Assembly: GCF_000718305.1 (NCBI RefSeq)
Contig: NZ_JOFQ01000001.1
Location: 62,001 to 126,000, forward strand
Reading direction: 5' to 3'
DNA from: Streptomyces niger
Lineage (GTDB): Bacteria > Actinomycetota > Actinomycetes > Streptomycetales > Streptomycetaceae
Length of the DNA: 64,000 nt
Positions 17,722 through 34,580 of this stretch are shown here, piece after piece (within the stretch, counting starts at the first letter, position 1; each line of letters starts with the position of its first letter). The notes beneath the pieces are model-generated. The model was not told where the DNA came from and did not search any database. It saw only the letters and a program-made list of their open reading frames with translations. Both the position numbers and the translations under genes were made by a program.

Positions 17722-18714
17722 TTGAGGGCACGTCCGAGAAGCACCGAATCGCCACAGCAGCAACGCGATGATCGAACCCCCGCGGAATCGCCCCGGACGG
17801 ACCCACATCACGACTGGTACCTCCGAGCGGGCGTACGCAGCGCGCCCCGTCGTGTCCTGACGGACGAACTCGCCGCCGGGCAACTGTTCTTCCCGCCCGC
17901 TCTGGTGCCGTACCTGGACCATCCGCTGGTACGTGCTCTGCCGGCGGACCGGCGCGATGAGCTGCTCGCCCGGCACCTCTTTCAGTACCTGAGCTTCACT
18001 GCCCATTTCGAGACCCGTGTGGTCAACCGGGCCACGGACAGCATCGCGGGCGGCCGCAGCGGGATCGGAGCCTCCGCCGCCGTCCGGCTGGACGCGTACC
18101 GGATCTACTGCGACGAGGGATACCACTCCCTGTACAGTTTCGACGTCGTCGACCAGGTGTCCCGGGCATCGGGCATCGCCGTGCTGCCGTACGACTTCAC
18201 ACCGTTCCTGCGGCGCCTCGACGCCATCGGGGAGCAGGCGTTGCCCGACGCTCCGGCCCTCGCCCAGCTTCTGCAGGTCGTGGTCTTCGAAACGCTGATC
18301 ACAGCAATCCTCAACGACGTACCCCGGGACGGGCGGGTGCTCACCGTTGTACGGGACATCGTGCGCGATCACGCCAAGGACGAGGGCTGGCATCACGTCT
18401 TCTTTTCGCGCTTCTTCCGCGAACTGTGGGCGCAGCAGGACTCCGAGCAGCGCGAACGCATCGCGCGATGCGTCCCGGACCTGATCCGCGCCAGTCTGCT
18501 GCCCGACCTGCGGCCGGTGCGCACCGCCCTGTCCTCGGCCGGGCTGGTCGCCGGGAAGGTGGAGGAGGTCGTCCGGGACGCCTACGCACAGCGGCGGGTC
18601 GATGACGGCATCAGGGCTGCTTCCCGGCATTCGGTGCGGCTGTTCCAGGAAACCGGCGTCGTGGACGCACCGGGCGCACACGATGCCTTCGCGGCGGCGG
18701 GATTGCTGCCGTGA
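17722..18714 (+). CDS. AurF/CmlI-type diiron N-oxygenase
   Basis: 330 aa from TTG 17722, chosen because AGGAGG ends 5 bases upstream (a GTG at 17707 lacks one). The AurF family oxidises amines to hydroxylamines or nitro groups with O2. Ligand-type residues match: E97 (HFETRVVNRAT), E132 and H135 (CDEGYHSLYS), E190 (VVFETLITAI), H217, E221 and H224 (RDHAKDEGWHHVFF). It heads a plus-strand set with a carbamoyltransferase-like, methyltransferase, aaRS-like and HAD gene. It therefore probably N-oxygenates an amino-acid-derived amine in a biosynthetic pathway. An aliphatic rather than aromatic substrate is a guess from the neighbours. Confidence 0.8.
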   Translation: MRARPRSTESPQQQRDDRTPAESPRTDPHHDWYLRAGVRSAPRRVLTDELAAGQLFFPPALVPYLDHPLVRALPADRRDELLARHLFQYLSFTAHFETRVVNRATDSIAGGRSGIGASAAVRLDAYRIYCDEGYHSLYSFDVVDQVSRASGIAVLPYDFTPFLRRLDAIGEQALPDAPALAQLLQVVVFETLITAILNDVPRDGRVLTVVRDIVRDHAKDEGWHHVFFSRFFRELWAQQDSEQRERIARCVPDLIRASLLPDLRPVRTALSSAGLVAGKVEEVVRDAYAQRRVDDGIRAASRHSVRLFQETGVVDAPGAHDAFAAAGLLP

Positions 18715-18878
18715 GGGGCCGGTGGAGGGTCTCCTCCTGGCGAAGAGTCCCGTCCGCAGCGTCCTCCGCTGCGTGAACGTCCAGCAGTCTGCACTCCATA
18801 GACCCGAAGAACCTTCACTTCGCAGAGCCGTCGAACAACGAACCGGTCACGTGCTGACCATTCACCGAATGAGGCCCG

Positions 18879-19838
18879 ATGGCAGACACATGCACTGCAC
18901 AGGACCCCGGCCTTGAACAGGGACTGTTCTCGCTGGCCGACTTGGAACCCGCGCTGATCAGAAAGCTGGCCGCGCGTTCGGTCGAACTCTTCCGGGCACC
19001 GGACGCGCACGAACGGCCGCTGGCCGGCCACCTCGTCGGCGTCCTGTTCACCAAGACCTCCACCCGTACCCGCACGGCCTTCACCGTGGGTGCCGTCCGG
19101 CTGGGCGCCGTGCCGGTCGCCTACGGCCCCGGCGACCTTCAGCTCGGCACCGGTGAGTCCATCGCGGACACCGGACGGATACTGGGAGCGATGCTCGACG
19201 CCCTGGTCGCCCGGACCGCCGGTCCCTTGGAGGAGCTTCGAGAGCTCTCCCGCCGAGGGCGTTTCCCCGTGGTCAATGCCATGGCGGCGCAGGAGCACCC
19301 CAGCCAGGGTCTGTGCGACCTGGCCACGCTCGAACTGGCCCTGGGCAGCCCGGAGGGTGTGCGACTGCTGTACGTCGGCGAAGGAAACAACACGGCGGTG
19401 GCGCTGGCCCACGGGCTCGCCGCCGTCCCCGGGGCCCACATCACTTTCGCGACCCCGCCCGGATACGGCGTTCCCGAGCCCGATCTGGCGGCGGCCCGCC
19501 GACGCGCGGAGCGGGTCGGCGCGGCCGTGGCACAAGTGCACGACCTCACTCAGGCACCGGACGAGGTGGACGTCGTCTACACCACCCGGTGGCAGACGAC
19601 CGGTACCAGCAAGCCGGACCCCGACTGGCGTCAGGTGTTCCGGCCCTTCCACGTCGACAGCGCACTGCTGGACCGGTGGCCACGCGCCGTGTTCCTGCAC
19701 GATCTGCCCGCACACCGGGGTGACGAGGTCGCGGGCGAGGTCCTCGACGGACCGCGCTCCCTGGCGTGGACCCAAGCGGCGATGAAACTGTCCAGCGCCA
19801 TGGCGGTACTTGAGTGGGCCGCGCAATCGCAGTACTGA
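18879..19838 (+). CDS. Divergent ornithine/aspartate carbamoyltransferase-like enzyme
   Basis: 319 aa. Transfers a carbamoyl group from carbamoyl phosphate to an amine. The phosphate-binding motif STRTR (61-65) and HPSQ (140-143) are intact. The second-substrate side differs from ArgF: the HCLP motif reads HDLP (274-277), losing the ornithine-contacting Cys, and the usual DxxxSMG loop is replaced by DVVYTTRWQTTGTSK. This is unlikely to be housekeeping ArgF and more likely acts on a different amine or hydroxylamine. ATG preceded by GAGG. It follows the diiron oxygenase by 164 bp and is followed by a strong hairpin. A resistance version of ArgF is a less likely alternative. Confidence 0.8.
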   Translation: MADTCTAQDPGLEQGLFSLADLEPALIRKLAARSVELFRAPDAHERPLAGHLVGVLFTKTSTRTRTAFTVGAVRLGAVPVAYGPGDLQLGTGESIADTGRILGAMLDALVARTAGPLEELRELSRRGRFPVVNAMAAQEHPSQGLCDLATLELALGSPEGVRLLYVGEGNNTAVALAHGLAAVPGAHITFATPPGYGVPEPDLAAARRRAERVGAAVAQVHDLTQAPDEVDVVYTTRWQTTGTSKPDPDWRQVFRPFHVDSALLDRWPRAVFLHDLPAHRGDEVAGEVLDGPRSLAWTQAAMKLSSAMAVLEWAAQSQY

Positions 19839-19859
19839 GTTGCCGCCCCGGCCCGGTCC

Positions 19860-19893
19860 GGCCATCGCGGGCCCGGGCGGGCCCGCGATGGCC
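19860..19893 (+). terminator. Perfect 15-bp stem hairpin
   Basis: GGCCATCGCGGGCCC (19860-19874), 4-base loop, then its exact reverse complement (19879-19893). It sits between the carbamoyltransferase and methyltransferase genes and could terminate or attenuate transcription inside the operon, or protect the upstream mRNA. Confidence 0.7.
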
Positions 19894-19963
19894 CGTCGGT
19901 TTGCTGGCGCCTGGGCCGCCCTACCCGCGCCCCTGTCGTCGTCTTCACGGATCGAGGTGCTCC

Positions 19964-20902
19964 ATGTCCAACGTCACCCGGGTATCCGCCTACCGGCATC
20001 TCCAGGAGTGCGACCTGGTGCCTCCTGGCTCCTCGTACGTCTTCTTCGAACCGGCCGACACCGAGATCGGCGTGTGGGTGGCCGCGGACCTGTTCTCGGA
20101 GGGCTGCTGCGTACTGGATCTCGGCTCGGGCAGTGGTGCCGCCGCGGCCGCGATGGCCCGGGCCGGCGCCGTGCGAGTGCACGGTGTCGACTCGGGCGCC
20201 GAAACGGTCGCCTGGGCACGTGCGCACTACGCCTCCCCCGGCGTCGGGCCCGTGACATTCGCGCAGGGCGACTTCTCCCTGTTGTCGAGCCGGGAGTTGC
20301 TGGCCACCGCCCCGGCCCCGCTGCACCGGCCCCTGATCGTGGCGAGCAATCCGCCCTACGTGCCGCTCACCGAGGGGGCCGCCGCGCTGCGCCGGTCGAT
20401 CAGCGGCGCCCAGGACGGGTTGAAGTGGGCGCCGGCGATCATCGGGCACGCCCATGCGCTCGGCAGTGACCTGGCGTTCACGATCGGCAGCTACTCCAGT
20501 CCTCGCAAGGCCGCTCGGATGCTGGCGAGGGCCGGGTACCGCATCGAGTCCGTGACCCTGTGCCCACTTCCGCTGGGGGCTTTCACGCTCGCGCACATGG
20601 AGCAGGTACTGGACCTGGAAGGCGAGGGCGAGGCGGTGCTCTGGCGGGCCGAGGGACGGGAGCCGTCCTACTTCGTCGTCGGACTGGCCTGTCACCGGGA
20701 CGGAGTGGACGGGAGGGACGCCGGGCGCCTGAGCGGGAGCGGTGCGCGGCTGACGGAAGACGGGCTGATGGCCGTGCTCCGCGCCGCGGCGCGCTCGCGT
20801 ACGTCTCATCTCGAATCCCTGGACGAGCCGGGCGCGCCGCACGTGCCCGTTCCGCTGCGTGTCCTGGATCTGCCCCATGCGGCCGTCCGTCACCACTGGT
20901 GA
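19964..20902 (+). CDS. SAM-dependent methyltransferase with NPPY motif
   Basis: 312 aa. The class I Rossmann fold is marked by VLDLGSGSGAAAAAMA (SAM-binding motif I), VHGVDSGAETVAWARAH and the catalytic-type SNPPYVPLTE. NPPY is characteristic of methyltransferases acting on nitrogen of amides, amines or bases (PrmC/HemK and N6-adenine types), so N-methylation of the pathway intermediate is the best guess. The C-terminal ~100 residues (from about 215) are a divergent extension. ATG at 19964 with GAGGTG upstream. Co-directional with the diiron oxygenase and aaRS-like genes, separated from the former by a strong hairpin. Confidence 0.75.
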   Translation: MSNVTRVSAYRHLQECDLVPPGSSYVFFEPADTEIGVWVAADLFSEGCCVLDLGSGSGAAAAAMARAGAVRVHGVDSGAETVAWARAHYASPGVGPVTFAQGDFSLLSSRELLATAPAPLHRPLIVASNPPYVPLTEGAAALRRSISGAQDGLKWAPAIIGHAHALGSDLAFTIGSYSSPRKAARMLARAGYRIESVTLCPLPLGAFTLAHMEQVLDLEGEGEAVLWRAEGREPSYFVVGLACHRDGVDGRDAGRLSGSGARLTEDGLMAVLRAAARSRTSHLESLDEPGAPHVPVPLRVLDLPHAAVRHHW

Positions 20903-20940
20903 CGCGGCCCGTCCCCTTCGCAGAGAGGAAGGACGCTCCT

Positions 20941-22062
20941 GTGAACGCAGTCCGTCCGGACCCGGTCCCGCCTGATCTGGTCTCCCCCGTCAGCGTCACC
21001 GTCACCGCCGTAACGCACAGCGCCGACTTCATCCGCCCCCGATTGCGTGCCGACAGGCGCGACCGTCTTGCCCTCCATGCAGGCGTGCAGATCAACGGTG
21101 CGCCCCACGTGGGCACCAACGTGATGCAGACCGCCGCCTTCTTACTGGCCGAGGCCGCCCGCGACCGGTTCGGCGTCGAGACAGTGCTGCGTTTCGGCGC
21201 CCTGGACAACACCGCCTGTGACACACGCACCTGCGCGCGTACCGGCACGCTCTACGAGAGGAGCTACCATCACGCCCTCGGACCGGAAGCGATCGGCGAG
21301 CTGACACGGCGCTACTACGGCGGACTGTTCGACTCGTTGTCCGCCGCCACCGGGGTCCCCTATGAGGTGCAGACTTACACGGCACAACAGTCGGGTTCCG
21401 TCTTCCGGGAGGAGTTCCTGCGGTCGCTCGTCCTGAGGGACGAGCTGCGCTGGGTGCTGGCGCCCTCCTCCGGGCGGTTGCCCTTGAGCTTCCCCTGCCC
21501 TGAGTGTGGCTGGTCGCAGAAGCACGGCGAAGGTACGGAGTTGCTGGAGGCGGGTACGCGGCAGGCGCGAGCGCGTGCCGTATGTCTTGACCACGGCACG
21601 TACGCCGTGGACGTCACGCCGGAATCGCAGGTGTACATCGGTTCGACGACCCTCCATCGCAACCTGGTCAAAGAGCGCGCTGCCGCGCGCGACGACGCCC
21701 TTCCCGTCATCGTCAAGGGAGCGGACTGGGCCGCCGGCTGCCGGCTCCTGGACGAGGCGTTCTGGTGTTACGCGGGAGCGACTCCGCCGCCGCGCGTTTT
21801 CACCCCGGTCATCCTGTCGGAGTCGGGGGCCAAGCTGTCCAAGTCGCTGATACAGGAGGGGAAGGCGGACCTGCCGGCCGGCATCGCTCCGTGGATGCTG
21901 GACGTCACCCTTTGGGAGGGGCCGGTGGAAGAGTACGCCCACCTGCTCCTGCGGCTCGTTTCCCTGATGCTGTCCGACCCGCGCCACTTCGAGCGGGGTT
22001 ACACCACGCGGGAGCTGGCCCGCCTCATCGGCTCCGATGGCGGTTCCGGAGCGGCGGCGTGA
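20941..22062 (+). CDS. Class I aminoacyl-tRNA synthetase-like ligase (LysRS-I related)
   Basis: 373 aa, far shorter than class I LysRS (over 500). HIGH-type motif HVGT at 56-59 (INGAPHVGTN) and KMSKS-type motif KLSKS at 298-302 (GAKLSKSLI) keep the adenylation site. A CPEC pair at 186-189 with a later Cys suggests a zinc knuckle. The anticodon-binding domain appears to be missing. Such stand-alone domains activate an amino acid as an adenylate for amide, ester or N-N bond formation in natural-product pathways (MshC and MetRS-like enzymes are precedents). GTG start with GAGGAAGGA upstream. It overlaps the HAD gene by 4 bp. The substrate is unknown, with lysine or a lysine-like amino acid only suggested by family. 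Confidence 0.75.
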   Translation: MNAVRPDPVPPDLVSPVSVTVTAVTHSADFIRPRLRADRRDRLALHAGVQINGAPHVGTNVMQTAAFLLAEAARDRFGVETVLRFGALDNTACDTRTCARTGTLYERSYHHALGPEAIGELTRRYYGGLFDSLSAATGVPYEVQTYTAQQSGSVFREEFLRSLVLRDELRWVLAPSSGRLPLSFPCPECGWSQKHGEGTELLEAGTRQARARAVCLDHGTYAVDVTPESQVYIGSTTLHRNLVKERAAARDDALPVIVKGADWAAGCRLLDEAFWCYAGATPPPRVFTPVILSESGAKLSKSLIQEGKADLPAGIAPWMLDVTLWEGPVEEYAHLLLRLVSLMLSDPRHFERGYTTRELARLIGSDGGSGAAA

Positions 22063-23063
22063 CGTCACTCGCCGGGCTCTACGATGCCGCTCTGCTCGAT
22101 CTCGACGGTGTGGTCTACGTCGGGCCCCGTGCCGTCGAGCACGCCACGGAATCATTGGTCCGGGCCGGCGAAGCGGGCATGCGCCTGGCCTACGTCACCA
22201 ACAATTCCTTCCGTACGCCTCGCACGGTGGCCGAGCACCTGCGCGAGCTGGGCGTGCCGGCGGCCGAGGAGGACGTGGTGACCTCGGCGCAGGCCGCCGC
22301 GCGCCTCGCCGCCGAGCGCTGCGGACCGGGCGCTCGCGCGCTCGTCATCGGCGGCGAGGGACTACTGTCCGCGGTGCGCGCACGTGGCCTGGTGCCGGTC
22401 CGGTCCGCCGATGACGGGCCCTGCTGTGTCGTGCAGGGCTTCGCGCCGTCGTTGAGCTGGCGGGACCTGGCCGAGGCCGGTTATGCCGTCGGCCGCGGAG
22501 TGCCCTGGATCGCCACCAACGCCGACCGCGACGCACCCACCGCGCGCGGGACCGCACCGGGAAACGGCGCCCTCATCGGCGTGGTCGAGGCTGCCACCGG
22601 CCTGGTGCCCACCGTGGCCGGCAAACCTTCCGCCGCGCTGCTGCACGACGGTGCGACGCGTACCGGCGCCCGGCACCCGCTGATGATCGGCGACCGACTG
22701 GACACCGATGTCCAAGGTGCGCATTGCGCCGGTTACGACAGTCTCCTGGTACTCACAGGCGCCACAACGTGGCAGGAACTCCTGATGGCCCCCGCACATC
22801 GACGCCCCACTCACCTGGCAGCGGACCTGCGTGGTCTGCTGGCGCCGGCCCGCGCCGTGGCACGGCACCCGGACGGGTCCTCGTGCGGTGGCTGGCGGGC
22901 CTCGGTCCGGGACCGCGAGTTGTTGGTGGAGGGGGACGGTGACCCGTACGACGCACTGTGGGCCGCGTGCTCGGCAGCCTGGGCGGCGCCGGAATTACCG
23001 GGGATGACGAAGGCCCTGGCGGTCCTGGACCGGTACGTGCGCCCGCTCGGCGCGGACGTCTGA
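22059..23063 (+). CDS. HAD-superfamily phosphatase, NagD type
   Basis: 334 aa. The nucleophile motif is LLDLDGVVYVG, motif II is VTNNSFRTPRT, and motif III/IV is MIGDRLDTDVQGAHCAG. The cap is of the C2 NagD/PNPase kind. It hydrolyses a small phosphorylated metabolite in the cytosol. The GTG start overlaps the stop of the aaRS-like gene, so the two are coupled and probably act in sequence. The C-terminal ~75 residues (from WRASVRDREL) lie beyond the usual domain. A convergent GNAT gene follows across a hairpin. Confidence 0.85.
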   Translation: MTSLAGLYDAALLDLDGVVYVGPRAVEHATESLVRAGEAGMRLAYVTNNSFRTPRTVAEHLRELGVPAAEEDVVTSAQAAARLAAERCGPGARALVIGGEGLLSAVRARGLVPVRSADDGPCCVVQGFAPSLSWRDLAEAGYAVGRGVPWIATNADRDAPTARGTAPGNGALIGVVEAATGLVPTVAGKPSAALLHDGATRTGARHPLMIGDRLDTDVQGAHCAGYDSLLVLTGATTWQELLMAPAHRRPTHLAADLRGLLAPARAVARHPDGSSCGGWRASVRDRELLVEGDGDPYDALWAACSAAWAAPELPGMTKALAVLDRYVRPLGADV

Positions 23064-23077
23064 CACCGCCGGAAAAG

Positions 23078-23098: not shown

Positions 23099-23101
23099 AG
23101 G

Positions 23102-23641
23102 TCACCCCGCCGTACCACTGTCTCCGGGAGCCGGTACGGTGCGGGGCTCGGTACGTCGTTGGAACAGGGCCCCGGAGTGGCGGTGCGGCAGGTCCACGAT
23201 GCGCAGCAGCTGGAAGCCCTGAGCCAAGTAGTAGTGGTGCAGCAGGTGGTTGGTCTTCCACGCCTCCAGCCTGAGCCAGGTTTTCCCCTCCCCGGCGGCC
23301 AGCTCGCCCGCCCAGTCCAGCAGCCCGGCGCCGATCGCCTGCCCGGCTGCGGCTCTGCTCACCGCCAGGTCGTGAACGTACAGTGCGGACGCCGGATCGT
23401 CATCGGCCCACCATTCGGGGTCGCCCTTCTGCTGGACCGTGACGGTACCGACCAGCTGTCCGTCCCGATAGGCGAGGTGGCATTCGCGTGCCCGGATGGC
23501 CTCGGCCATGCGCCGGCGCCGTGGCGGGTACTGCCACTGGTCGCTGCCTTTGGAGGCCAGCCAGCGGCTGGCCTCGACCCAAAGCCCTTCCACGGTGTCC
23601 AGTTCGTCGGGGCGGGCGGGGCGGATGTCCAGAGCACTCAT
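23102..23641 (-). CDS. GNAT-family N-acetyltransferase
   Basis: 179 aa. Acetyl-CoA-dependent N-acetylation. The N-terminal strand is MSALDIRPARPDELDTVEG. The core reads LYVHDLAVSRAAAGQAIGAG (the V-x-x-x-x-R/A-G-x-G/A pyrophosphate loop) and LRLEAWKTNHLLHHYYLAQG. The ATG overlaps the stop of the upstream M20 amidohydrolase (ATGA), so the pair is co-translated. One adds and the other removes acyl groups, which suggests a protecting-group or resistance cycle for an amine-bearing product. The substrate is not predictable from sequence. Confidence 0.82.
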   Translation of the reverse strand: MSALDIRPARPDELDTVEGLWVEASRWLASKGSDQWQYPPRRRRMAEAIRARECHLAYRDGQLVGTVTVQQKGDPEWWADDDPASALYVHDLAVSRAAAGQAIGAGLLDWAGELAAGEGKTWLRLEAWKTNHLLHHYYLAQGFQLLRIVDLPHRHSGALFQRRTEPRTVPAPGDSGTAG

Positions 23642-24948
23642 GAGGCGGTGTCCTGACCGGAGGCGGACAGGTAGCGCAGGGCCACGGCGGCGTGGCAGGC
23701 GATACCCGACGCGAGGGCGTCCTCGTCGATGACGAGACGGCTGGAATGCAGTTCGGGGGCCTGGTCGGGGGTCAGACCGGGCGGGCACGCGCCGAGGAAC
23801 GCGAGCGCACCGGGCACGGCGGCCAGGACATAGGAGAAATCCTCCGCGGTCATGGCAGGGGCGGGCATCGCCTCGACGCGATCTGCTCCCAGGACGTCCG
23901 CCGCCACCCGCAGGACGAAGCCGGCGAACACGGAGTCGTTGACGGTCACCGGGTAGCCCGGCTCGACGGTGACCTCCGCCGCGGTACCGTGCGCCGCGGC
24001 CACACCTTCGGCGACCTGGGCGACCGCGCCGTGCAGGCGTTCCCTGGCGGCCTGCGACACGGTGCGAATGGTTCCCGTGATGTCGACCGTCTCCGGAATG
24101 ATGCCGGGGAGCGAGCCGGCGGACAGGGTACTGACGGTGAGGACCGCCGGGTCGTCGGCGGCGATCCTCCGGGTGACCGCGGTATGCAGAGCAAGCACGA
24201 TCTCGCAGGCGACGGGGATGGGGTCGGCAGCGGTGTGCGGGGCGGAGGCGTGGCCGCCACGTCCGCGTACGACGATGCGCAGTTTGTCGGAGGCGGCCAT
24301 CTGCGGGCCGGGCCGCAGTCGGACCGTACCGCTCGGCAGGCCGGGCATGAGGTGCAGCGCGAAGGCGGCGTCCGCCGCCCGCCCACCGGCCGTGAGGACC
24401 CCTTCCTCGATCATGTGGCGGGCTCCGTGGCGGCCTTCTTCGCCGGGCTGGAACATGAAGATGATCCGTCCGGCCAGCTCTTCCCGGTGCCGACTCAGCA
24501 GTTGTGCTGCGCCCGCCAGCATGGCGGTGTGCGCGTCGTGTCCGCAGGCGTGCATCGCGTCGGGCACCCGCGACGCGAAGTCCAGGCCGGTGGCCTCCCG
24601 TACGGGCAACGCGTCCATGTCCGCGCGCAGCAGAAGAGTGGGCCCCTCTTTCGCCCCGTCGAGCGTCGCGGTCACCGAGGAGAGCCGTTGGCCGGTACGC
24701 ACGTCCAGTCCGAGGCCGTCCAGAGCGCTCAGGAGACGCTGCTGCGTCCGCGGTAGGTGCAGCCCGACCTCCGGCCAGGCGTGCAGGGACCGGCGCAGAC
24801 CGACCGCGTCAGGTACCAGGCTGCGGGCTTCTTCGAGGAGCGTGGCGCCGCGCTGTTCCTGCTGTCGGGACTGCGGGCCGGCCGGTCTGCCGCTGTCCGT
24901 GGCGGCGGTGGATGCGTCTTCTGCCCCCGTACTGCCAAAGATCGTCAT
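23638..24948 (-). CDS. M20-family amidohydrolase/deacylase
   Basis: 436 aa from ATG 24948 (GGAGAG upstream). Metal-dependent hydrolase of N-acyl amino acids (hippurate/IAA-amino acid hydrolase group). Motifs: LHAWPEVG, RADMDALPV, HACGHDAHTAML (metal Cys/His pair), FQPGEEGRHGA (catalytic Glu), GGHASAPH in the lid domain, and MTAEDFSYVL near the C-terminus. The first 45 residues are a Ser/Ala/Gln-rich extension. Coupled to the GNAT gene and divergent from the PuuE-like deacetylase. Probably removes an N-acyl group from a pathway intermediate. Confidence 0.87.
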   Translation of the reverse strand: MTIFGSTGAEDASTAATDSGRPAGPQSRQQEQRGATLLEEARSLVPDAVGLRRSLHAWPEVGLHLPRTQQRLLSALDGLGLDVRTGQRLSSVTATLDGAKEGPTLLLRADMDALPVREATGLDFASRVPDAMHACGHDAHTAMLAGAAQLLSRHREELAGRIIFMFQPGEEGRHGARHMIEEGVLTAGGRAADAAFALHLMPGLPSGTVRLRPGPQMAASDKLRIVVRGRGGHASAPHTAADPIPVACEIVLALHTAVTRRIAADDPAVLTVSTLSAGSLPGIIPETVDITGTIRTVSQAARERLHGAVAQVAEGVAAAHGTAAEVTVEPGYPVTVNDSVFAGFVLRVAADVLGADRVEAMPAPAMTAEDFSYVLAAVPGALAFLGACPPGLTPDQAPELHSSRLVIDEDALASGIACHAAVALRYLSASGQDTAS

Positions 24949-25220: not shown

Positions 25221-26162
25221 ATGACCGTGCCCGGTACCCGCACGGAAGCAACGGCGCAGCCCGCTTGGGCATGGGAAGAAGCCGAGTGGCGCAGACATGT
25301 CGAACGGGTCCGCGCCGGACGCAGCCTCAAGCCGTCCCGATGGCCCGGCGGAGCCAAGGCCGCGGTGGCGCTCTCCTTCGACCCGGATCACGAGACGATT
25401 CCGCTGCGGGACGGGCAGGTGCTGCCGGGCAAGCTCGCACAGGGCGAATACGGCGCACGGGTGGGTGTCCCCCGCATCCTCCGCCTTCTGGAACGGCGCT
25501 CCCTCCCGGCCACGTTCTTCATGCCGGCCGTCTGCGCCCTGCTGCGCCCGGACGAAGCCCGCGGTTACACCGAGCGTGGCCACGAGGTGGCCATCCACGG
25601 CTGGATTCACGAACGCAACATGGAACTCGCCTACGAGGACGAGCGGGACCTCGCTTTCCGGTGTGCCGACACCCTCGAACAGATCACCGGTCAGCGGCCG
25701 GTCGGCATCCGCACGCCGTCCTGGGACTTCAGCGAGCACACACTCGGCATCTCCCGTGACCTCGGCCTGTCCTACGACTCGTCCCTGATGGCCGATGACG
25801 ATCCCTACGAAATCCTCTCCTACGGCGAGCCGACGGGGCTGGTGGAGATTCCTCCGGAGTGGATTCGCGACGACGCGGTCTACTTCAACATGGACCGGTA
25901 CACCGCGGTGCGCCCTTACACCGTGCCGCGTCAGGTTCTGGGGCTGTGGCGGGACGAATTCGATGCCGCGTACGCCGAGGGCGGGCTGTTCGAGCTCACC
26001 ATGCATCCGCACGTCATCGGTCACCGGTCACGCATGGTCGTCCTCGACGAGCTGCTCGACCACATTGCCGGGCATCACGACATCTGGTACGCGACTCACG
26101 CGCAGGTCGCCGAGCATGTGAGGCAGCCGTCGGCGCTTCCCGCCGAAGCACCCGGAAGGTGA
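25221..26162 (+). CDS. Polysaccharide-deacetylase-family hydrolase (PuuE/HpPgdA-like)
   Basis: 313 aa, no signal peptide, so cytosolic. The NodB-fold signature is VALSFDPDHET (residues 49-59, metal Asp/His region), LPATFFMPA, and HGWIHERN (126-133, the second His pair), then GIRTPSWDFSEHTL and FELTMHPHVIGH. This subgroup includes allantoinase PuuE and cyclic-amide hydrolases rather than chitin or peptidoglycan deacetylases. In this setting it may open or deacylate a small amide. ATG start with GAGTGAGGA upstream. Divergent from the M20 gene across 271 bp. Confidence 0.82.
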   Translation: MTVPGTRTEATAQPAWAWEEAEWRRHVERVRAGRSLKPSRWPGGAKAAVALSFDPDHETIPLRDGQVLPGKLAQGEYGARVGVPRILRLLERRSLPATFFMPAVCALLRPDEARGYTERGHEVAIHGWIHERNMELAYEDERDLAFRCADTLEQITGQRPVGIRTPSWDFSEHTLGISRDLGLSYDSSLMADDDPYEILSYGEPTGLVEIPPEWIRDDAVYFNMDRYTAVRPYTVPRQVLGLWRDEFDAAYAEGGLFELTMHPHVIGHRSRMVVLDELLDHIAGHHDIWYATHAQVAEHVRQPSALPAEAPGR

Positions 26163-26544: not shown

Positions 26545-27348
26545 ATGTTGATCTTCATCGTCGTGGCCGTGCTCGCGTTGTGCGTCGGCATCGCCCTCAA
26601 CCGGTTCCTGCGTCCGCGTCTGGGGATTCAGAACGAAGAATCCTTGCGCGTCCGCGACCTGGTCGGCCCGCTCCAGACCCTGACCGTCCTCCTCGTCGCC
26701 TTCACCCTCGCCATGGCATCCACCTCCCACGGCAAGGCCAAGGAAGCAGTGCGGACCGAGGCGAACGCCCTGGAGAACCTGGCCGAGGTCGCCGAGTACA
26801 CGCCCGCCCCACTGCGCCAGCGTCTGCGCGCGGATGTCGTCTGCTACGCGAGGGCCGTGCGCCACCAGGAGTGGCCGGCCATGGATGCCGGACACGGCTC
26901 CACGGCCCCCAACGCCTGGAGCACCGATATGCGCGTGGCGTTCAAAGACCTCAGCGACGGCCACCCCTCGTTCAGTCTGCTGGCCAACGCCAACAAGAAC
27001 CGGTCCGAAGCGCGGCAGACCCGGCTGGCCGAGTCCGCCCCCACCATCCCGGACACCGTCCTCGCGTTCATGCTGGCCAGCCTCGCCGTGAGCGTGGCCG
27101 CCATGGGGCTCGCCACGCCGCGCCAGAACAACAAGGCCCACCTGACCGCCATCACCGTGGTCACGGCCCTGCTGACCACTGCCCTGGTCATCATTCACGA
27201 CGTCGAGCGTCCCTTCGCCGGCACAGTGGCCATCCCAGCGACGGCGATGGCGAACGTCGAACACGAGACCACTCAGGAATATCGCGACGCACATGGAGCC
27301 GCCGACCTTCCGTGCGACCAACACGGCAATGAGACCAAGACCAAGTGA
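26545..27348 (+). CDS. DUF4239-type (bestrophin-like) membrane protein
   Basis: 267 aa. An N-terminal transmembrane helix (IFIVVAVLALCVGIALNRFL), a second near residues 50-65 (LQTLTVLLVAFTLAMAS), a soluble helical middle with EANALENLAEVAEYTP, and two more helices at about 175-192 and 208-225. This order matches DUF4239 proteins, which are remotely like bestrophin channels. The function is unknown. It lies between the biosynthetic-type genes and the ABC transporter genes without obvious coupling to either. ATG start with GGAGAG upstream. Confidence 0.7.
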   Translation: MLIFIVVAVLALCVGIALNRFLRPRLGIQNEESLRVRDLVGPLQTLTVLLVAFTLAMASTSHGKAKEAVRTEANALENLAEVAEYTPAPLRQRLRADVVCYARAVRHQEWPAMDAGHGSTAPNAWSTDMRVAFKDLSDGHPSFSLLANANKNRSEARQTRLAESAPTIPDTVLAFMLASLAVSVAAMGLATPRQNNKAHLTAITVVTALLTTALVIIHDVERPFAGTVAIPATAMANVEHETTQEYRDAHGAADLPCDQHGNETKTK

Positions 27349-27655
27349 ACGGGCGCCATCGCATCGTCACGGCTGCGCGGAAACACTCAGGCGCACCAGA
27401 TGAAGTCAACCGGAATACCCCGATCACCTGAAGAGGTGGTTGCCCGGCGCGGGAAGCGCTCACCGAAAACCCAGGAATACGCTGGAGCATGTGACCATCC
27501 GATCGGTGGATCGCGGTCACTGCTCCGCGTACTTCCTCGATGTCGAAGAGCGCGCGGCCGGTGCAAGAGGCGCAGTGCGGTGTCATGTACGCCCTTCATC
27601 CGCAGACCGAGGCGGCCCGGCCGGCCGGTGGCGGCGGCCCCACGGAGGAGTCGAG
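27349..27655. other. Gene-free stretch upstream of ABC transporter genes
   Basis: 307 bp with no convincing frame. It probably holds the promoter for the binding-protein/permease operon. The GGAGGAG at 27645-27650 serves the TTG start at 27656. Confidence 0.4.
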
Positions 27656-28573
27656 TTGAGACTGAGGACGACCGTCACAGTGACCGTCGCACTGCTCGTC
27701 CCCACAGCACTTGTGGCATGCGGCCGGGAGGGCTCGCCGCCGGGCAGCGTCACGGCATTACTGAGCGGTGACCGGCAGCGCCTCACGTACCCGGTCAGCC
27801 ATCACGCACGCGACACCGGCTCCCTCTCCCTGGCCCGTGCCGCAGCCAGAGGCAGAATCGTCATCGGGGTCAAGTCCGACCACCCCTTCCTCGGTTTCGA
27901 GGATCCGGTGACCGGTCAACGCGTCGGCTTCGACGTGGAGATAGCCAGAATGATCGCGGCGGACCTCGGATACTCAGCCGGGCGGATCACCTGGAAAACC
28001 GTCCCTCCCCAAGGCCGGGAGACCGCCATCGCCCAGGGGGACGTCGATTTCTACGTCGCCGCGTACACCATCAACGACGAGCGCAAGAAGCAGGTCTCCT
28101 TCGCAGGCCCCTACTACATCGCGGGCCAGGACCTCCTCGTCAAGAAGGAGAACCGCGACATCAACGGCCCCGCCGGCCTGAAGGGGAAGACCGTCTGCAG
28201 CGTCACCGGCTCCACGCCTTACCAGCGCATCCAAGAGCCCCGCTTCGGCGCCAAGGTCATCTCCCACGACAGCTACGCCCAGTGCGTACAAGATCTGATC
28301 ATTGGCGAGACCGATGCCGTGACCTCCGACGACACCATCCTCAAGGGATACGCGGCACAGAACGGCGGGCGGTTGAGGGTCATCGGCCGCCCTTTCTCCA
28401 CGGAGCCCTACGGCGTGGGCCTGGCGAAGAACGACAAGGTACTGCGCAGCGCCATCGACGACGCCCTGGAACACCACATGGCCAACGGCGACTGGCGACG
28501 CGCCTACGAAGACACACTCGGTCGGTCAGGAACCGGACCGGTCCCCCACCCACCGCGGATCCAACGCTACTGA
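27656..28573 (+). CDS. Amino-acid ABC transporter substrate-binding lipoprotein
   Basis: 305 aa from TTG 27656, chosen for the GGAGGAG just upstream and because it places a lipoprotein signal at the N-terminus (TVTVALLVPTALVACG, lipobox LVAC). The mature part is a SBP_bac_3 domain: RIVIGVKSDHPFLGFED, GFDVEIARMIAADLG, DFYVAAYTINDERKKQV, FAGPYYIAGQDLLV, and EPYGVGLAKND. It captures a polar amino acid or similar solute outside the membrane and delivers it to the two permeases downstream. No cognate ATPase gene is found in the window. Confidence 0.88.
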   Translation: MRLRTTVTVTVALLVPTALVACGREGSPPGSVTALLSGDRQRLTYPVSHHARDTGSLSLARAAARGRIVIGVKSDHPFLGFEDPVTGQRVGFDVEIARMIAADLGYSAGRITWKTVPPQGRETAIAQGDVDFYVAAYTINDERKKQVSFAGPYYIAGQDLLVKKENRDINGPAGLKGKTVCSVTGSTPYQRIQEPRFGAKVISHDSYAQCVQDLIIGETDAVTSDDTILKGYAAQNGGRLRVIGRPFSTEPYGVGLAKNDKVLRSAIDDALEHHMANGDWRRAYEDTLGRSGTGPVPHPPRIQRY

Positions 28574-28738
28574 CCGGCCGAACCATGTGCCGGGGAGTTC
28601 GAAGGCCGAGGCAAGAGCCCTTCCTCTGCTCGCCGAACGACACCGCTACCCCACCAACGACATCACTCCCCCACCATCGACCGATCTCCTTCCCGTAACT
28701 GCCGGAACCGCCGCCGGCCGTGGATCCCGGAGGCACAC

Positions 28739-29386
28739 GTGCACGTGCTGCTGGACAACACCGATCTGTTCCTCCGGGGCTTCGTGGGAACCGTGACCCT
28801 GACCGGCCTGAGCGCCCTGCTCGCCCTGACGGTGGGGACTCTCCTCGCGGTCTGCCGGGTCAGCCCGGTGCCGCCCCTGCGCGCGCTGGGCACGGCAGCC
28901 GTCACCGTGCTGTGCAACACCCCGCTCACCCTGTTGTTCTTCGCGGTGACCCTCGGCCTGCCCATGCTGGGTCTCTCCCGGCTCAGTTACTTCTGCCTGG
29001 CAGTGCTGACCCTGGGCTGCTACACCTCCGCGTTCGTCTGCGAGGCACTCAGATCCGGCGTCAACACGGTCGAGACGGGACAGGCCGAAGCCGCCCGCAG
29101 CCTGGGCATGTCCTTTCCGCAGACCGTATTCCTCATAGTCCTGCCTCAGGCGGGCCGGGCCGTGGTGCCACCGGTCGGCAGCCTGCTCATTACGCTGACC
29201 AAGAACTCCGCACTGGCCGGCGGATTCAGCGTCTACGAACTGTTCAGCACGGAGAAGACGTTGGTCGAGAACGGCTACGCCATCCTGACCGTCTTCGCCT
29301 GGATATCCGCGGCCTACCTGCTACTCATATCCTGCATCAGCGGTGTGTTCCGGCTGCTTGAACACCGGCTGTCGGTGGTCCGGTGA
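28739..29386 (+). CDS. Amino-acid ABC transporter permease 1 (HisM/GluC type)
   Basis: 215 aa with about five membrane helices. The EAA loop is EAARSLGMSFPQTVFLIVLPQA and is preceded by FVCEALRSGVNTV, as usual for polar-amino-acid permeases. GTG start with GGAGG upstream. Its stop overlaps the start of the second permease (GTGA). Forms the membrane channel with the next gene product and is served by the upstream lipoprotein. Confidence 0.88.
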   Translation: MHVLLDNTDLFLRGFVGTVTLTGLSALLALTVGTLLAVCRVSPVPPLRALGTAAVTVLCNTPLTLLFFAVTLGLPMLGLSRLSYFCLAVLTLGCYTSAFVCEALRSGVNTVETGQAEAARSLGMSFPQTVFLIVLPQAGRAVVPPVGSLLITLTKNSALAGGFSVYELFSTEKTLVENGYAILTVFAWISAAYLLLISCISGVFRLLEHRLSVVR

Positions 29387-30306
29387 CCTCCGTCCTGTTC
29401 GACACCCGCGGGCCACGGGCACGCCGCCGCCACGCCATTTACAGCGTCGTTGTTGTCGGAGGTGTCGCCGCGCTGCTCACCTACGTGTTCCTCCGCTTGC
29501 TCGACGCCGGACAATTCACCGCGGCAATGTGGCAGATGTTCTCGTACGAGGGCGTCCAGCGGCGCATTCTCGCCGGGATCCTGGACACTGTGAAGGCCTT
29601 CCTTCTCGGTGTCGCGTTCTCCCTCGTTCTGGGAATTCTGTTCGCCACCACCCGCCTCTCCGTACACCGCCTGGTGAGCGTTCCGGCCACCGTGCTCGTG
29701 GAGTTCTTCCGGGCCATGCCGCTCCTCATCATGATCTTCGCTCTGTACAACACCGCGTGGCTGCGCTCGTCCGTCACCGCGATCGGCGGTTCTCTCCGTG
29801 ACCACCTCGGCGGTCCGGGCTCCTGGCTGGCGGCCACCTTCGCTTCCCCGACGCTGTGGGCCCTGGTGATCGGCATCGCCCTGTACAACGGCGCCGCGCA
29901 GGCGGAGATTCTGCGCGCCGGTGCCCTGGCCGTACCGCGAGGACAACGCGAAGCGGCCGTCGCCTTGGGCATGCGCAAGGGCCAGCTGATGCGAGCGGTC
30001 GTCATTCCGCAAGCAGTACGTTCCATGCTGCCGAGCATCATGAGCCAGATCGTCGTCACGTTGAAGGACACCTCGTTGGGTTTCATCATCACCTATGAGG
30101 AACTTCTCTACGCGGGAAAGCTGTTGGCCCAGAATACGGCGACGCCCACGGGATACCCATATATTCCCGTACTGCTGGTGGTCGGCCCCTGTTACATCGG
30201 CATGTGTCTCCTGCTGTCCACCGCAGCCCGCCGGCTCGCCAGCCTGAATGGGCGCACCGCCACCGCCCCCATCCGGCGGGAGAAGGGTCTCCTGCGGCGC
30301 CGCTGA
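29383..30306 (+). CDS. Amino-acid ABC transporter permease 2 (HisQ/GluD type)
   Basis: 307 aa with an N-terminal helix and a BPD_transp_1 core. The EAA motif reads QREAAVALGMRKGQLMRAVV followed by IPQAVRSMLPSI. Before it stands AQAEILRAGALAVP. The substrate class is polar amino acids or derivatives such as ectoine or opines. A GTG start overlaps permease 1. After its stop there is no ATP-binding gene. An EctD-like hydroxylase follows 233 bp later, so the ATPase must be shared from elsewhere in the genome or has been lost. Confidence 0.88.
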   Translation: MTSVLFDTRGPRARRRHAIYSVVVVGGVAALLTYVFLRLLDAGQFTAAMWQMFSYEGVQRRILAGILDTVKAFLLGVAFSLVLGILFATTRLSVHRLVSVPATVLVEFFRAMPLLIMIFALYNTAWLRSSVTAIGGSLRDHLGGPGSWLAATFASPTLWALVIGIALYNGAAQAEILRAGALAVPRGQREAAVALGMRKGQLMRAVVIPQAVRSMLPSIMSQIVVTLKDTSLGFIITYEELLYAGKLLAQNTATPTGYPYIPVLLVVGPCYIGMCLLLSTAARRLASLNGRTATAPIRREKGLLRRR

Positions 30307-30539: not shown

Positions 30540-31469
30540 ATGGCCTCCGCAGCCCGTTCCGCAAATGATCCGTACCCCACGCGCTACGTCACCGCATCGC
30601 TGCCCTTCGACCGCCGCCACCCCGTGGTGTGGGGCGAGGGGGCGGATGGTCCGCTGAGCACCGACGAAGTGGCGGCCTATCGGCGTGACGGTTTCCTCGC
30701 CTTCGGCGCGCTGCTCGCGCCCGAGGACGTGGCGAGGTGCCGGGAAGAGCTCCGGCGCATCGGCCAGGACAGCGACCTGCGGGGAAGTGAACGCTTGGCG
30801 CCCGAGCCGGACTCCGCGGAGATCCGCTCGGTCTTCGAAGTCCACGAGCTCAGCGAGGTGTTCGCCCGGATCGTCCATTCCGGGGCGCTGGCCGACAAGG
30901 CACGGCAGGTGCTCGGCTCGGACGTGTACGTCCACCAGACCAGGGTCAACTACAAAGCGGCCTTCGACGGCTCGAAGTTCGGCTGGCATTCGGACTTCGA
31001 GACCTGGCATTCCGAGGACGGGATGCCCGTGCCGCGTGCCCTCAGCTTCTCGGTCGCCCTGAGCGCGAACCTTCCGGTCAACGGACCGCTCATGATCATT
31101 CCTGGATCGCACCGCACGTTCGTCCCTTCCGTGGGCGAGACTCCGGTCGACTACCACAAGCTCTCGCTCCTGGGGAAGAACCTGCCGGCCGGCCCGGCGG
31201 ACCGGGCGGCGGTGACGGACCTGGCAGAGCGGAACGGCATCGAGTCCTTCACCGGAGCACCCGGCTCAGCCGTCATGTTCGACTGCAACTGCCTGCACAG
31301 TTCGAGCGGTAACGTTTCACCGTTCCCGCGGACCAATCTCTTCATCGTCTACAACAGCGTGGACAACCCACTGGGCCGGCCCTACGCCGCGCCGAAACCC
31401 CGCCCCGGCTACCTGGCCAGCCGGAACTTTACGCCAGTGCCACAGGACGCCCGCCGGCGCGACCGCTGA
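30540..31469 (+). CDS. EctD-like Fe(II)/2-oxoglutarate hydroxylase
   Basis: 309 aa. The EctD family hydroxylates ectoine to 5-hydroxyectoine. The signature block is nearly complete: VHQTRVNYKAAFDGSKFGWH then SDFETWHSEDGMPVPRA, giving iron ligands H150 and D152, with the third, H253, in DCNCLHSSSGN. NGPLMIIPGSHRTFVPSVGE and PFPRTNLFIVYNSVDNP also match. No ectABC genes are in the window, so ectoine would have to be made or imported elsewhere. Alternatively the enzyme hydroxylates another amino acid of the local pathway. ATG start with AGAGGGAAGAGG upstream. Confidence 0.82.
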   Translation: MASAARSANDPYPTRYVTASLPFDRRHPVVWGEGADGPLSTDEVAAYRRDGFLAFGALLAPEDVARCREELRRIGQDSDLRGSERLAPEPDSAEIRSVFEVHELSEVFARIVHSGALADKARQVLGSDVYVHQTRVNYKAAFDGSKFGWHSDFETWHSEDGMPVPRALSFSVALSANLPVNGPLMIIPGSHRTFVPSVGETPVDYHKLSLLGKNLPAGPADRAAVTDLAERNGIESFTGAPGSAVMFDCNCLHSSSGNVSPFPRTNLFIVYNSVDNPLGRPYAAPKPRPGYLASRNFTPVPQDARRRDR

Positions 31470-31675
31470 GCCGAACCCTTCGCGGCACGCAGCCACGACC
31501 GGCGTGCCCGGAAGCCGGAAAGACATCCGGAGCCGGGAAAACCGCCGGGCGCACGGCTCCCCACCGAGCAGCGCCCGGCCACGGTGCGGCCGCACCGGCT
31601 GCGCCCGGCCCACCGGTTGACGTGCGCCCCTTGCGGTACCCCGGTGTTTCCCACACGACCGGGGACACGTCGGGA

Positions 31676-32911
31676 TCACCGGTCGGGGCCTGGATCAAGG
31701 CCAGGGTCGGAATACGTGAGGACGGCTGATTCCGGCACAGCCCGGGTATCCGACGCGCACGCTCCGGCGGACGGAGCGCCGGCACTCCGCCGTCCGCCCG
31801 CCGATGGATCCGCATCCACGGCGCCCGCACTACCCTGCGCGGCACCGTACGAGGAACGGTCCACCGCCAGGACCTTCACCCTGTCAGTAATTCCCGTTGT
31901 GGTGAGCCGCTGCTGCTGCCGCCAGTGCCGCGAGTACACGGTGCCGAGGTACCGGTCGGCGCCGTCCGCGCAAAGACAGGCGGCCCTGGTACGCCGGGCC
32001 GTGGCGCGAAACAGCTGCAATGCCGCCGCGATCACCGCCCCGGAACTCGCGCCGACGCCCAGCCCTGCGGTCTCCTGAAGCCACAGGCATACGCTCACGG
32101 CCTCCTGCGGTGTGATGCGCACCGCGGGACGGAATCCGCCCGGCAGGAACGATGACGGACGGCTGGCACCGATTCCGGAAAGCACCCGCCGTCCGTGCGG
32201 GCCGCCGAGAGCGACCGATCCCGTCATGTCGACTCCCACCAGCTCCCAGTCGGGCACGGACGCGGTGACGAAGTCACGGAAGCCGGCCAGCGTTCCGCCG
32301 GTCGAGACCGCCACCAGCACGGTCGTCCGGCCCTCGGGGATCTGCGCCCGCAGTTCGGGGGCGGTGCCGGTGGAGTGGGCCCGCGGGTTCGCCGGGTTCG
32401 TGTACTGGTTGGGCCACACCAGGAACGGCTCGGCGCGCAAGCGCTGCCGAATGTAGTCCAGCCTGCTGAGCAGATATCCTCCCGCGCCATCCGGTCGGTC
32501 GACCATGACCACGGTGCCGCCGAGGGCTCGGATGCCTTCGATGACATGCCCGCTGGTCTTGGGGTCCACGACGGCCGTGAACGGAACCTGATGCGAAGCG
32601 GCGACTGCCGCCAGCGCGAGGCCGAGATTGCCGGACGTCGATTCGATGATGCCGATCGCAGGATCGACACGGTCGACGACGTCCTGCCACAGCGCTACAG
32701 CCGTTCGCCCCTTGACGGAGCCGAAGGCGTTTGCAGATTCCAACTTCAACCACAGCGTACGCGGTATGTCGTCAACAGATATATCGAGGGAAACAACCGG
32801 AGTGGCCGATGACCGTGGAGTTCCACCCGAGAGCAGTTCGCTACGGCCGTCCGAAAGACTCGGCAAAGCGCCTCCTCGCCGCCTGCCCCCCTTACGCCGT
32901 AGGCCAGTCAC
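31676..32911 (-). CDS. PLP-dependent cysteine-synthase-family enzyme (SbnA-like)
   Basis: 411 aa from GTG 32911. Beta-replacement enzyme. SbnA makes an intermediate of L-2,3-diaminopropionate from O-phosphoserine and glutamate. PLP lysine is K67 in ANAFGSVKGRT, the phosphate/substrate loop is STSGNLGLALA (91-101), and VVDPKTSGHVIEGIRALGG, FLVWPNQYTNPANPRAHSTG and AVSTGGTLAGF match SbnA more than CysK. No SbnB-like dehydrogenase is seen. About 70 C-terminal residues (from VKVLAVDRSS) form a low-complexity Ala/Ser/Gly tail that may reflect a lost stop codon. It probably supplies a beta-substituted alanine to the cluster. Confidence 0.8.
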   Translation of the reverse strand: MTGLRRKGGRRRGGALPSLSDGRSELLSGGTPRSSATPVVSLDISVDDIPRTLWLKLESANAFGSVKGRTAVALWQDVVDRVDPAIGIIESTSGNLGLALAAVAASHQVPFTAVVDPKTSGHVIEGIRALGGTVVMVDRPDGAGGYLLSRLDYIRQRLRAEPFLVWPNQYTNPANPRAHSTGTAPELRAQIPEGRTTVLVAVSTGGTLAGFRDFVTASVPDWELVGVDMTGSVALGGPHGRRVLSGIGASRPSSFLPGGFRPAVRITPQEAVSVCLWLQETAGLGVGASSGAVIAAALQLFRATARRTRAACLCADGADRYLGTVYSRHWRQQQRLTTTGITDRVKVLAVDRSSYGAAQGSAGAVDADPSAGGRRSAGAPSAGACASDTRAVPESAVLTYSDPGLDPGPDR

Positions 32912-33257
32912 GATCACTGCGCCGACCTCGACAATTAGACGTCTCAAAGTTAGAGAGTGAAGAGCGCACTGCCAAGGCAGCAAACGCGCCACGTTCCGCC
33001 TGCACGCCGGATGCTCACGGGAATTGCGCTCAGGATTTTACTCAGGTCACGTAAGTTGCCGATTGAGCGCTGTGTACATGACTGGACACCGCGTGTCCGA
33101 CAATCATCTCCTGAGCATTCGCAGGGCGTAGCGCGTGGTTACGCGTGGCAGGTAACGAATTCTTCGAGTAGCGGTGAGAGGGGCGCCGGAGGTCCTGGCG
33201 CCCCGTCCCTCGACGGAGACGCGGTGCCGGACACCGCCTCGTACGGCTTCGACACGC
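32912..33257. promoter_or_regulatory. AT-richer gap upstream of SbnA-like gene
   Basis: 346 bp between the minus-strand MFS and SbnA-like genes. Bases 32930-32965 (caattagacgtctcaaagtt) are AT-rich and may form the promoter of the SbnA-like gene. No gene is supported. Confidence 0.4.
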
Positions 33258-34580
33258 TCAGTGCGGCCGGTTCGCCTCCTCATCGAAGGCGTGAGCGGGC
33301 CGGGGCACCCGGCCCGCACCTGGGCAACTGCCCGTCTCATCAAGGGCCGTCGGGCCGGGCAGCGCGCCAGTGCGGTACAACCAGGCAACCGCCACGGCAG
33401 ATGCCACCCCGAAGAACACGCAGCAGCCCCAGGGAAGCGCCTCGTGACCGGTCCGCCATCCGGTGTCCATCGCCCAGCCCACCAGCGCGTTCCCGGCCGC
33501 CGCCGCCAAGCCGGAAAACATGGAGAACACCCCGAAGTACGTTCCCGTGAGCCCCTCCCGGCCGAACCTGGGAATCAGGCCTATGACAGGTGGCTGGGCG
33601 ATCATGACCCCGCAGTAGAGGAGCAGCGCCCCGGCCAGGACCGGGAGCGTGTGCAGGGCCGCTTCCACCGGACCGGCCGGCGGTACCTGGCCACGGACGA
33701 ACATGGGCGGCACGAACCCGCACGCCATGAGCGTCAGTCCGAGACCCACCCATCGAGTGCCGCCGCCACGCCGTTCCACGGCCCGGGTGACCCGCAGCTG
33801 AAGCCCCATGTTGATCAGCGCTCCCACGACCAGCAGCACGCTGACCGACTCCTCGCGCCCGGAGGCCCTGCGCGCACCTTCGGGCAGCAGCAGGTAGAGC
33901 TGGTTCTCCAGGGTGGCCATGCCCGCCGCGGCGATCGCGAAGACGAGGAACCTGCGGTTGCCGAACACCTCCCGCCAGTCCGCGCGCACCGAGCCTTGCC
34001 GCTCCGTCGCCCGGTACGCCGGAAGCGCGAACAACTGGGCCACGGTCAGCAGCGCGAACACCGCAGCCGCCACCAGCGCGCAGCAGCGGAAGTCCACCAG
34101 GACCAGGAGGCCGCCCAGCAGCAGCCCCACCAGCGAGCCGCTGGTGGCGAAGACGTTCAGCAATGCGAAGGACTCGGCCGCACCGCCGTCCGATGCGCGC
34201 GCGAGATAGGTACGTACGGCCGGGTAGAAGAGTGCCCCCGCGAGTCCGCTGAGCCCGGCGGCGACGAGCACGACGGGGAACGAACTCCCGATGGCGAACA
34301 GGCCGAAGCCGACCGTCCGCAGTCCACACCCGGCGATGATCACCGTGCGGGGTCCGAGCCGGTCGGCCGCCGAACCGCCCAGGATGAACAGACCCTGCTG
34401 GCTGAGATTGCGCAACCCCAGTACCAGCCCGACCAGCGCCGCCGACATGCCCAGGTCGTGTCCGAGGTAGGCCGCCAAGAAGGGAATGAGGAGGTAGAAG
34501 CCGACGTCCACGCCGAATTGGTTGATGAGCAGAAGCTGGACCGCCGGCGGGAAGCCGCGGACCACCTGAAGAGTTTTCAT
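33258..34580 (-). CDS. MFS transporter, drug/metabolite efflux
   Basis: 440 aa from ATG 34580 (MKTLQVVRGFPPAVQLLL). Upstream in-frame codons read as junk. Twelve-helix major facilitator with the loop 2-3 motif GGSAADRLGPRTVI (GxxxDRxGRR-like) and symmetrical halves, the second starting near VFGNRRFLVFAIAAAG. Likely exports the product of the neighbouring amino-acid-modifying genes or confers resistance. It is separated from a plus-strand NHL gene by a long divergent spacer. The Pro/Gly-rich tail after residue 410 is cytoplasmic. Confidence 0.88.
   Translation of the reverse strand: MKTLQVVRGFPPAVQLLLINQFGVDVGFYLLIPFLAAYLGHDLGMSAALVGLVLGLRNLSQQGLFILGGSAADRLGPRTVIIAGCGLRTVGFGLFAIGSSFPVVLVAAGLSGLAGALFYPAVRTYLARASDGGAAESFALLNVFATSGSLVGLLLGGLLVLVDFRCCALVAAAVFALLTVAQLFALPAYRATERQGSVRADWREVFGNRRFLVFAIAAAGMATLENQLYLLLPEGARRASGREESVSVLLVVGALINMGLQLRVTRAVERRGGGTRWVGLGLTLMACGFVPPMFVRGQVPPAGPVEAALHTLPVLAGALLLYCGVMIAQPPVIGLIPRFGREGLTGTYFGVFSMFSGLAAAAGNALVGWAMDTGWRTGHEALPWGCCVFFGVASAVAVAWLYRTGALPGPTALDETGSCPGAGRVPRPAHAFDEEANRPH

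Follow-up and report, generated by a model that had tools for sequence, protein, structure and literature searches.

Introduction

The Dap (L-2,3-diaminopropionate) branches of viomycin, zwittermicin and capreomycin biosynthesis feed a nonribosomal peptide synthetase (NRPS), and capreomycin presumably shares with the other two the conversion of Dap to β-ureidoalanine. In the viomycin/zwittermicin branch this step belongs to a Dap transcarbamylase (DPTCase), which, according to passages of PMC4581275, is marked by (T/S)RWQTTG in its 240s loop and by HDLP replacing HCLP. Here we describe a Streptomyces niger locus in which a transcarbamylase with both marks lies beside an AurF-type N-oxygenase, a PrmC-like methyltransferase and a protein resembling class I aminoacyl-tRNA synthetases (aaRSs). 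The locus is part of a stretch of 64,000 nucleotides (the window; G000:C1:62001-126000) of an 8.5 Mb host genome, and positions below are those of the window. We consider the locus likely to be a conserved biosynthetic cluster that makes, independently of an NRPS, a small amino acid derivative from Dap.

Fifteen Genes Recur Together in Other Streptomyces Genomes

An earlier note on this DNA had grouped ten genes between 17722 and 34580 into one cluster free of NRPS and polyketide synthase (PKS) genes. All ten were verified in place by gene calling, frame composition and family searches (Pfam and NCBIfam, with motifs and a predicted fold for the aaRS-like protein; Table 1), and neither an NRPS nor a PKS family was found among the 15 cluster proteins scanned. 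We ran the window proteins by tblastn against the loci retrieved in searches for the aaRS-like protein and for AurF. Fifteen window genes were found together, at 57–82% identity, in genome G093 (locus L029, completed by L104), in Streptomyces iconiensis (L049) and in G241 (L084). Three gene orders are present: one shared by G093 and G241, a different one in S. iconiensis and a third in the window. The recurrence of the same 15 genes in three other genomes, in changed order, confirms that the ten genes form one real cluster beyond what chance would bring together, and no synteny dividing them into separate units was found. Conservation of gene order, which the note had raised as a check, holds for the gene set but not for the order itself, since both other orders differ from that of the window. 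The proposed extent likewise needed correction at its limits: the conserved unit reaches 37251, adding a family 3 solute-binding protein (SBP3) and two permeases (27440–30306) and an NHL protein (35347–37251), and a Bestrophin-like gene inside the span, for which tblastn at E 1e-8 found no equivalent in the related clusters, is not part of the conserved cluster.

A search of 392 genomes of the genus with the AurF protein (E 1e-40, five candidates scored per genome) gave at least 48 places in 38 genomes; all 48, together with L049, made up the 49 stretches examined. The clade of the window AurF comprises nine loci (at least 67% identity, L094 being partial; tree support 95/93). The SbnA-like gene and the methyltransferase gene accompany AurF in all nine, and the DPTCase gene in eight, L085 being the locus without it. 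The aaRS-like, EctD-like and PuuE-like genes occur together in five (window, L029/L104, L049, L084 and L085), and the other four (L086, L087, L088 and L094) have a smaller core without these three genes. Thus, the cluster consists of a core to which an elaboration module can be added. The HAD, M20, GNAT, MFS, NHL, SBP and permease genes are complete in the window, L029/L104, L049 and L084; among the minimal loci, MFS is kept in L087 and L088, and M20 in L088 at 59%. The minimal locus L094 (9602–13187) looks rearranged or decayed: its AurF is truncated, and its SbnB is broken into two parts that flank the methyltransferase.

The copies of EctD and PuuE found here appear together with the extended cluster. 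The window EctD-like protein scores 354 bits against TIGR02408 (curated cut-off 336.5), a stronger EctD (493.7 bits) lies elsewhere in the host genome, and by sequence the former is a paralogue of the latter. Among the nine genomes, EctD of the cluster type (70–78%) is present in exactly the five that have the extended cluster; the same five hold a second EctD-type copy at 49–52%, which in the host is the stronger EctD match. The PuuE-like gene, at 77% or more, is likewise found in exactly these five, and a second host PuuE at 69% (G000:C36, L138) stands without any further cluster gene nearby. These distributions bear on the idea that two or three unrelated units merely adjoin: a core of oxygenase, transcarbamylase and methyltransferase, an amino-acid-type ABC transporter and an ectoine-type hydroxylase. 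Such a patchwork would accommodate the four loci without aaRS-like, EctD-like and PuuE-like genes, the mixed strands of the window genes and the retention of only six genes in L085. However, the complete 15-gene set in four genomes and three orders, and the presence of cluster-type EctD and PuuE only alongside the cluster among the nine genomes (bar the 69% PuuE of the host), make it highly improbable.

Outside the window clade, seven further AurF loci (53–58%; L089–L093, L095 and L096) represent related AurF and DPTCase clusters. DPTCase is present in all seven and the SbnA and SbnB pair in six, with no match to the methyltransferase or the aaRS-like protein; six form a supported clade (100/99), and L093 falls weakly beside the window clade. 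Genes for a class III aminotransferase and for formyltransferase-like, NDK-like and LysE-like proteins are present in those inspected, some of which have another AurF. Among the remaining 33 AurF places (35–52%), only the stretch fetched for L116 contains a DPTCase. L116, like L114, L115, L119 and L136, is a second AurF gene that shares a contig with one of the seven, ∼8–15 kb from its DPTCase. When mapped on the AurF tree, the label "DPTCase nearby" required five changes and had no single origin, overlapping loci and second AurF genes having caused some labels to be assigned wrongly, and only the supported window clade was taken from this tree. A plasmid search for AurF returned five records at 32–40% identity.

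The aaRS-like protein matched in at least four of the 392 genomes at E 1e-110, again with five candidates scored in each; one match, G101 (49%), is not of the cluster type, and G241 was missed although the gene is present. Scanning genome contigs with one protein found a single locus. The named proteins closest to the aaRS-like protein are from Streptomyces except for one from Actinomadura, and A. fulvescens holds homologues of both this protein and the methyltransferase. The cluster family is spread patchily through Streptomyces and, going by these two homologues, probably extends to one Actinomadura. A YbdK/GCS2 ligase beside minimal loci L086 and L094 (60% identical) was considered as a stand-in for the aaRS-like ligase and rejected: of 15 genomes examined, 10 have homologues, so that this neighbourhood is only suggestive.

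Transcarbamylase and Dap Supply

The carbamoyltransferase-like enzyme was said in the earlier note to have a changed amine site, and its sequence bears this out. It reads YTTRWQTTG in the SMG loop and HDLP at residues 274–277, where ornithine transcarbamylase (OTCase) has HCLP; HDLP is present in all 11 transcarbamylases examined. Because both published DPTCase signatures are present, conversion of Dap to β-ureidoalanine is supported as the anchor step of the pathway. The SbnA-like enzyme has its best PDB match in CmnB (215.7 bits), a capreomycin enzyme, ahead of SbnA itself (139.1 bits). The suggestion of an N-oxidised, carbamoylated and ligated product of the diaminopropionate type is supported by the DPTCase signature, by CmnB as nearest solved relative of the SbnA-like enzyme and by the regular company of AurF with the SbnA-like and DPTCase genes described above.

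Several findings weigh against this reading. The SbnA-like enzyme scores 261.6 bits against TIGR03945, below the curated cut-off of 349.95. No SbnB was found in the window (tblastn at 1e-4), L085, L087 or L088, and the best SbnB homologue of the host genome reaches 84.3 bits at 32%, with no close copy. The L085 cluster has neither SbnB nor DPTCase, and no HAD, M20, GNAT, MFS, NHL or ABC genes within ∼30 kb; its genome has a single DPTCase-like match at E 1e-30, located elsewhere and with 51% identity. The extended product may thus not always require carbamoylation, or L085 may be a reduced copy.

SbnB is intact in L029, L049, L084 and L086. At E 1e-15 none was found in G378 or G452, and in G018 it lies beside another DPTCase in a separate cluster that reads as NRPS-like. 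Since SbnB is missing or located elsewhere in these cases, some strains may obtain Dap through a different locus. About 15 kb beyond the window end, the host carries a second SbnA/SbnB pair, whose SbnB is the 32% homologue mentioned above, with a TauD-like protein and, by eye, NRPS-like sequence (L105:14660-19899, G000:C1:140660-145899), which by its gene content appears to be another Dap pathway.

The AurF-Type N-Oxygenase

The oxygenase matches AurF PF11583 with 85.2 bits (cut-off 29.6). The seven positions that we take to be the AurF diiron ligands are retained in the alignment to 3chh and in all ten aligned rows, from which the truncated L094 copy was left out. The window enzyme thus has family and ligands in common with AurF of aureothin biosynthesis, but against the model for 4-aminobenzoate N-oxygenase proper (NF045603) it reaches 50.3 bits, below the curated cut-off of 620, and another substrate is expected, namely an aliphatic or ureido nitrogen.

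The aaRS-Like Protein

Folds were predicted for the methyltransferase and the aaRS-like protein, and both were counted in favor of the Dap-derived product. Pfam gave no family match to the aaRS-like protein even at E 5, and no tRNA-synthetase profile; Pfam, NCBIfam, PADLOC, phmmer and a profile search against the PDB contributed nothing useful on its identity. It does contain a HIGH-like PHxG and a KMSKS-like GAKLSKS motif, in which P54, H55, G57 and G295–S299 are invariant and K300 nearly so across 62 rows, and its predicted fold resembles the catalytic portion of the class I type of lysyl-tRNA synthetase (LysRS-I). We call it class I aaRS-like because of these motifs and this fold. The protein of 372 residues aligns to residues 3–337 of a 507-residue LysRS-I chain and is without the anticodon-binding domain; on the predicted model, it is probably a free ligase.

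Its nearest outgroup consists of proteins fused or adjacent to ASCH, a putative RNA-binding domain. This relationship would suit a paralogue of the ASCH-associated family whose role, by tRNA charging or nucleotide modification, is self-resistance or regulation rather than ligation. The cluster form, however, has neither ASCH nor a visible anticodon-binding domain, and its gene is accompanied by EctD and PuuE in five of five loci; we regard this role as improbable. LysRS-I-like proteins with a fused or adjacent ASCH form a large family in actinobacteria (L030–L048; P0042–P0131), often accompanied by AAA_28 and an uncharacterised protein. The aaRS-like part of the ASCH-linked members scanned was named by neither Pfam nor PADLOC. 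With this sister group beside it, the cluster form would add an uncharacterised stand-alone LysRS-I-like family to the translation enzymes recruited into small-molecule synthesis.

A different use of the ligase would be to aminoacylate an N-hydroxyl group made by the AurF-type enzyme, after which the O-acylhydroxylamine would rearrange to an N–N bond, giving a hydrazine or azoxy derivative of Dap. The two genes recur together in five of the nine loci, and passages of PMC11705231 give such chemistry for MetRS-like domains acting on N-hydroxy amino acids and mention an N3-OH-DAPN substrate. An N–N product of this kind seems to us quite unlikely here.

Gene Content and Surroundings of the Locus

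The features of the cluster are collected in Table 1. The HAD-IIA gene would start at a GTG overlapping the stop of the aaRS-like gene, and the NHL gene starts at 35347, with a ribosome-binding-site-like aaggaga upstream. A ketosynthase followed by a thioesterase lies upstream of the cluster (10407–12607), and two terpene synthases (Terpene_syn_C_2) lie just downstream (38677–39759 and 41038–42054).

Table 1. Genes in the span of the putative Dap-derived cluster, in window positions.
Feature	Position	Strand	Basis and remarks
AurF-type diiron N-oxygenase	17722..18714	+	Pfam AurF PF11583; start codon uncertain
Predicted L-2,3-diaminopropionate transcarbamylase (DPTCase)	18879..19838	+	OTCace domains, two-domain; TRWQTTG and HDLP
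PrmC-like NPPY methyltransferase	19964..20902	+	Family match; NPPY present in sequence, as the earlier note had it
Class I aaRS-like (LysRS-I catalytic-domain) protein, probable amino acid ligase	20941..22062	+	Motifs and predicted fold
HAD-IIA phosphatase with GNAT-like C-terminal domain	22059..23063	+	Family searches; kept in L049, L084, L104
GNAT acetyltransferase	23102..23641	-	Family match; adjoins M20 in L049, L084, L104
M20 amidohydrolase	23638..24948	-	Family match; kept in L049, L084, L104; start uncertain
PuuE-like (polysaccharide-deacetylase family) amide or cyclic-ureide hydrolase	25221..26162	+	Family match
Bestrophin-like membrane protein	26545-27348		Inside cluster span; outside conserved set
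Family 3 solute-binding protein (SBP3)	27440..28573	+	Family match; kept in L029, L049, L084; start uncertain
ABC permease 1	28739..29386	+	Family match; tblastn conservation
ABC permease 2	29383..30306	+	Family match; tblastn conservation
EctD-like 2-oxoglutarate hydroxylase (PhyH/EctD)	30540..31469	+	TIGR02408, 354 bits
SbnA/CmnB-like pyridoxal-phosphate enzyme (PALP)	31676..32992	-	Pfam, NCBIfam, PDB match to CmnB; start uncertain
MFS exporter	33258..34580	-	MFS_1, 109.6 bits
NHL beta-propeller protein	35347..37251	+	60–70% identity over 335–375 residues in L029, L049, L084

Proposed Pathway

Beyond the family assignments, we infer the individual reactions, their order, the site of N-oxidation, the partner of the ligase and the product. 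The SbnA-like enzyme would form the Dap precursor, with SbnB covered in trans or by another route. As its signature motifs support, the DPTCase would carbamoylate the β-amine of Dap to β-ureidoalanine (albizziine), an isostere of glutamine. The PrmC-like enzyme would then N-methylate β-ureidoalanine, most simply at the terminal ureido nitrogen, a mimic of the glutamine amide on which PrmC acts, and the AurF-type diiron enzyme, by the reaction type of its family, would take a nitrogen to N-hydroxy or beyond. These steps would make up the core module, which stands alone in four loci. In the extended clusters, the fold and motifs of the aaRS-like enzyme suggest that it adenylates an amino acid and couples it to the core unit as an amide or N–O ester, a ligation that may resemble that of MshC and BshC, without tRNA, or that of the hydrazine synthetases. 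The EctD paralogue may hydroxylate carbon, and the PuuE-like enzyme may open or close a cyclic ureide or remove an acyl group. GNAT and M20 could put on and take off an N-acyl group, with MFS and the ABC components mediating export and re-import. The proposed pathway predicts a concrete first intermediate, β-ureidoalanine, and names candidates for oxygenase and ligase.

Comparison with Known Systems

The earlier note could name no known pathway for these genes, and none with this gene set was recognised in the open-access literature (search listings and passages), where a carbamoyl methyltransferase mentioned in the title of a PDB entry likewise led to no paper. PMC11479980 was considered as a matching pathway and set aside: in the passages concerned, an AurF-domain protein, an SbnB homologue and carbamoyltransferases are described as separate proteins.

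Besides the DPTCase, the cluster has in common with the viomycin/zwittermicin (and capreomycin) branch the SbnA/CmnB-like enzyme and, in its relatives, SbnB. It differs in lacking an NRPS match across the 15 scanned proteins and in continuing instead with the AurF-type enzyme, the methyltransferase and the probable aaRS-like ligase. MshC and BshC ligate without tRNA, and the predicted structure of the aaRS-like protein matches their class I aaRS catalytic fold; it differs from them in that its profile found no sequence match in the PDB and its fold is nearer LysRS-I. The L-alanosine cluster, as passages of PMC11705231 present it, likewise makes a small, Dap-derived, N-hydroxylated amino acid in Streptomyces, but flavin-type N-hydroxylation is proposed there, in contrast to the AurF-type oxygenase, transcarbamylase and aaRS-like ligase found here.

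The cupin/MetRS-like hydrazine synthetases of the s56-p1, triacsin and azaserine pathways similarly combine a class I aaRS-like domain with an N-hydroxylating enzyme acting on amino acids, according to passages of the same paper. In the present cluster the domain appears LysRS-I-like rather than MetRS-like, the N-oxygenase is a diiron rather than a flavin enzyme, Dap rather than lysine is expected, and no cupin family was found among the 15 proteins scanned. The comparison raises a bolder and rather doubtful proposal, in which the LysRS-derived ligase, working with the AurF-type oxygenase, O-aminoacylates an N-hydroxylated ureido or Dap unit and so drives N–O-acyl or N–N chemistry. If true, aaRSs would have been drawn into powering heteroatom chemistry a second time, independently of the cupin/MetRS family, and the products would form a new class of antimetabolites mimicking glutamine or citrulline.

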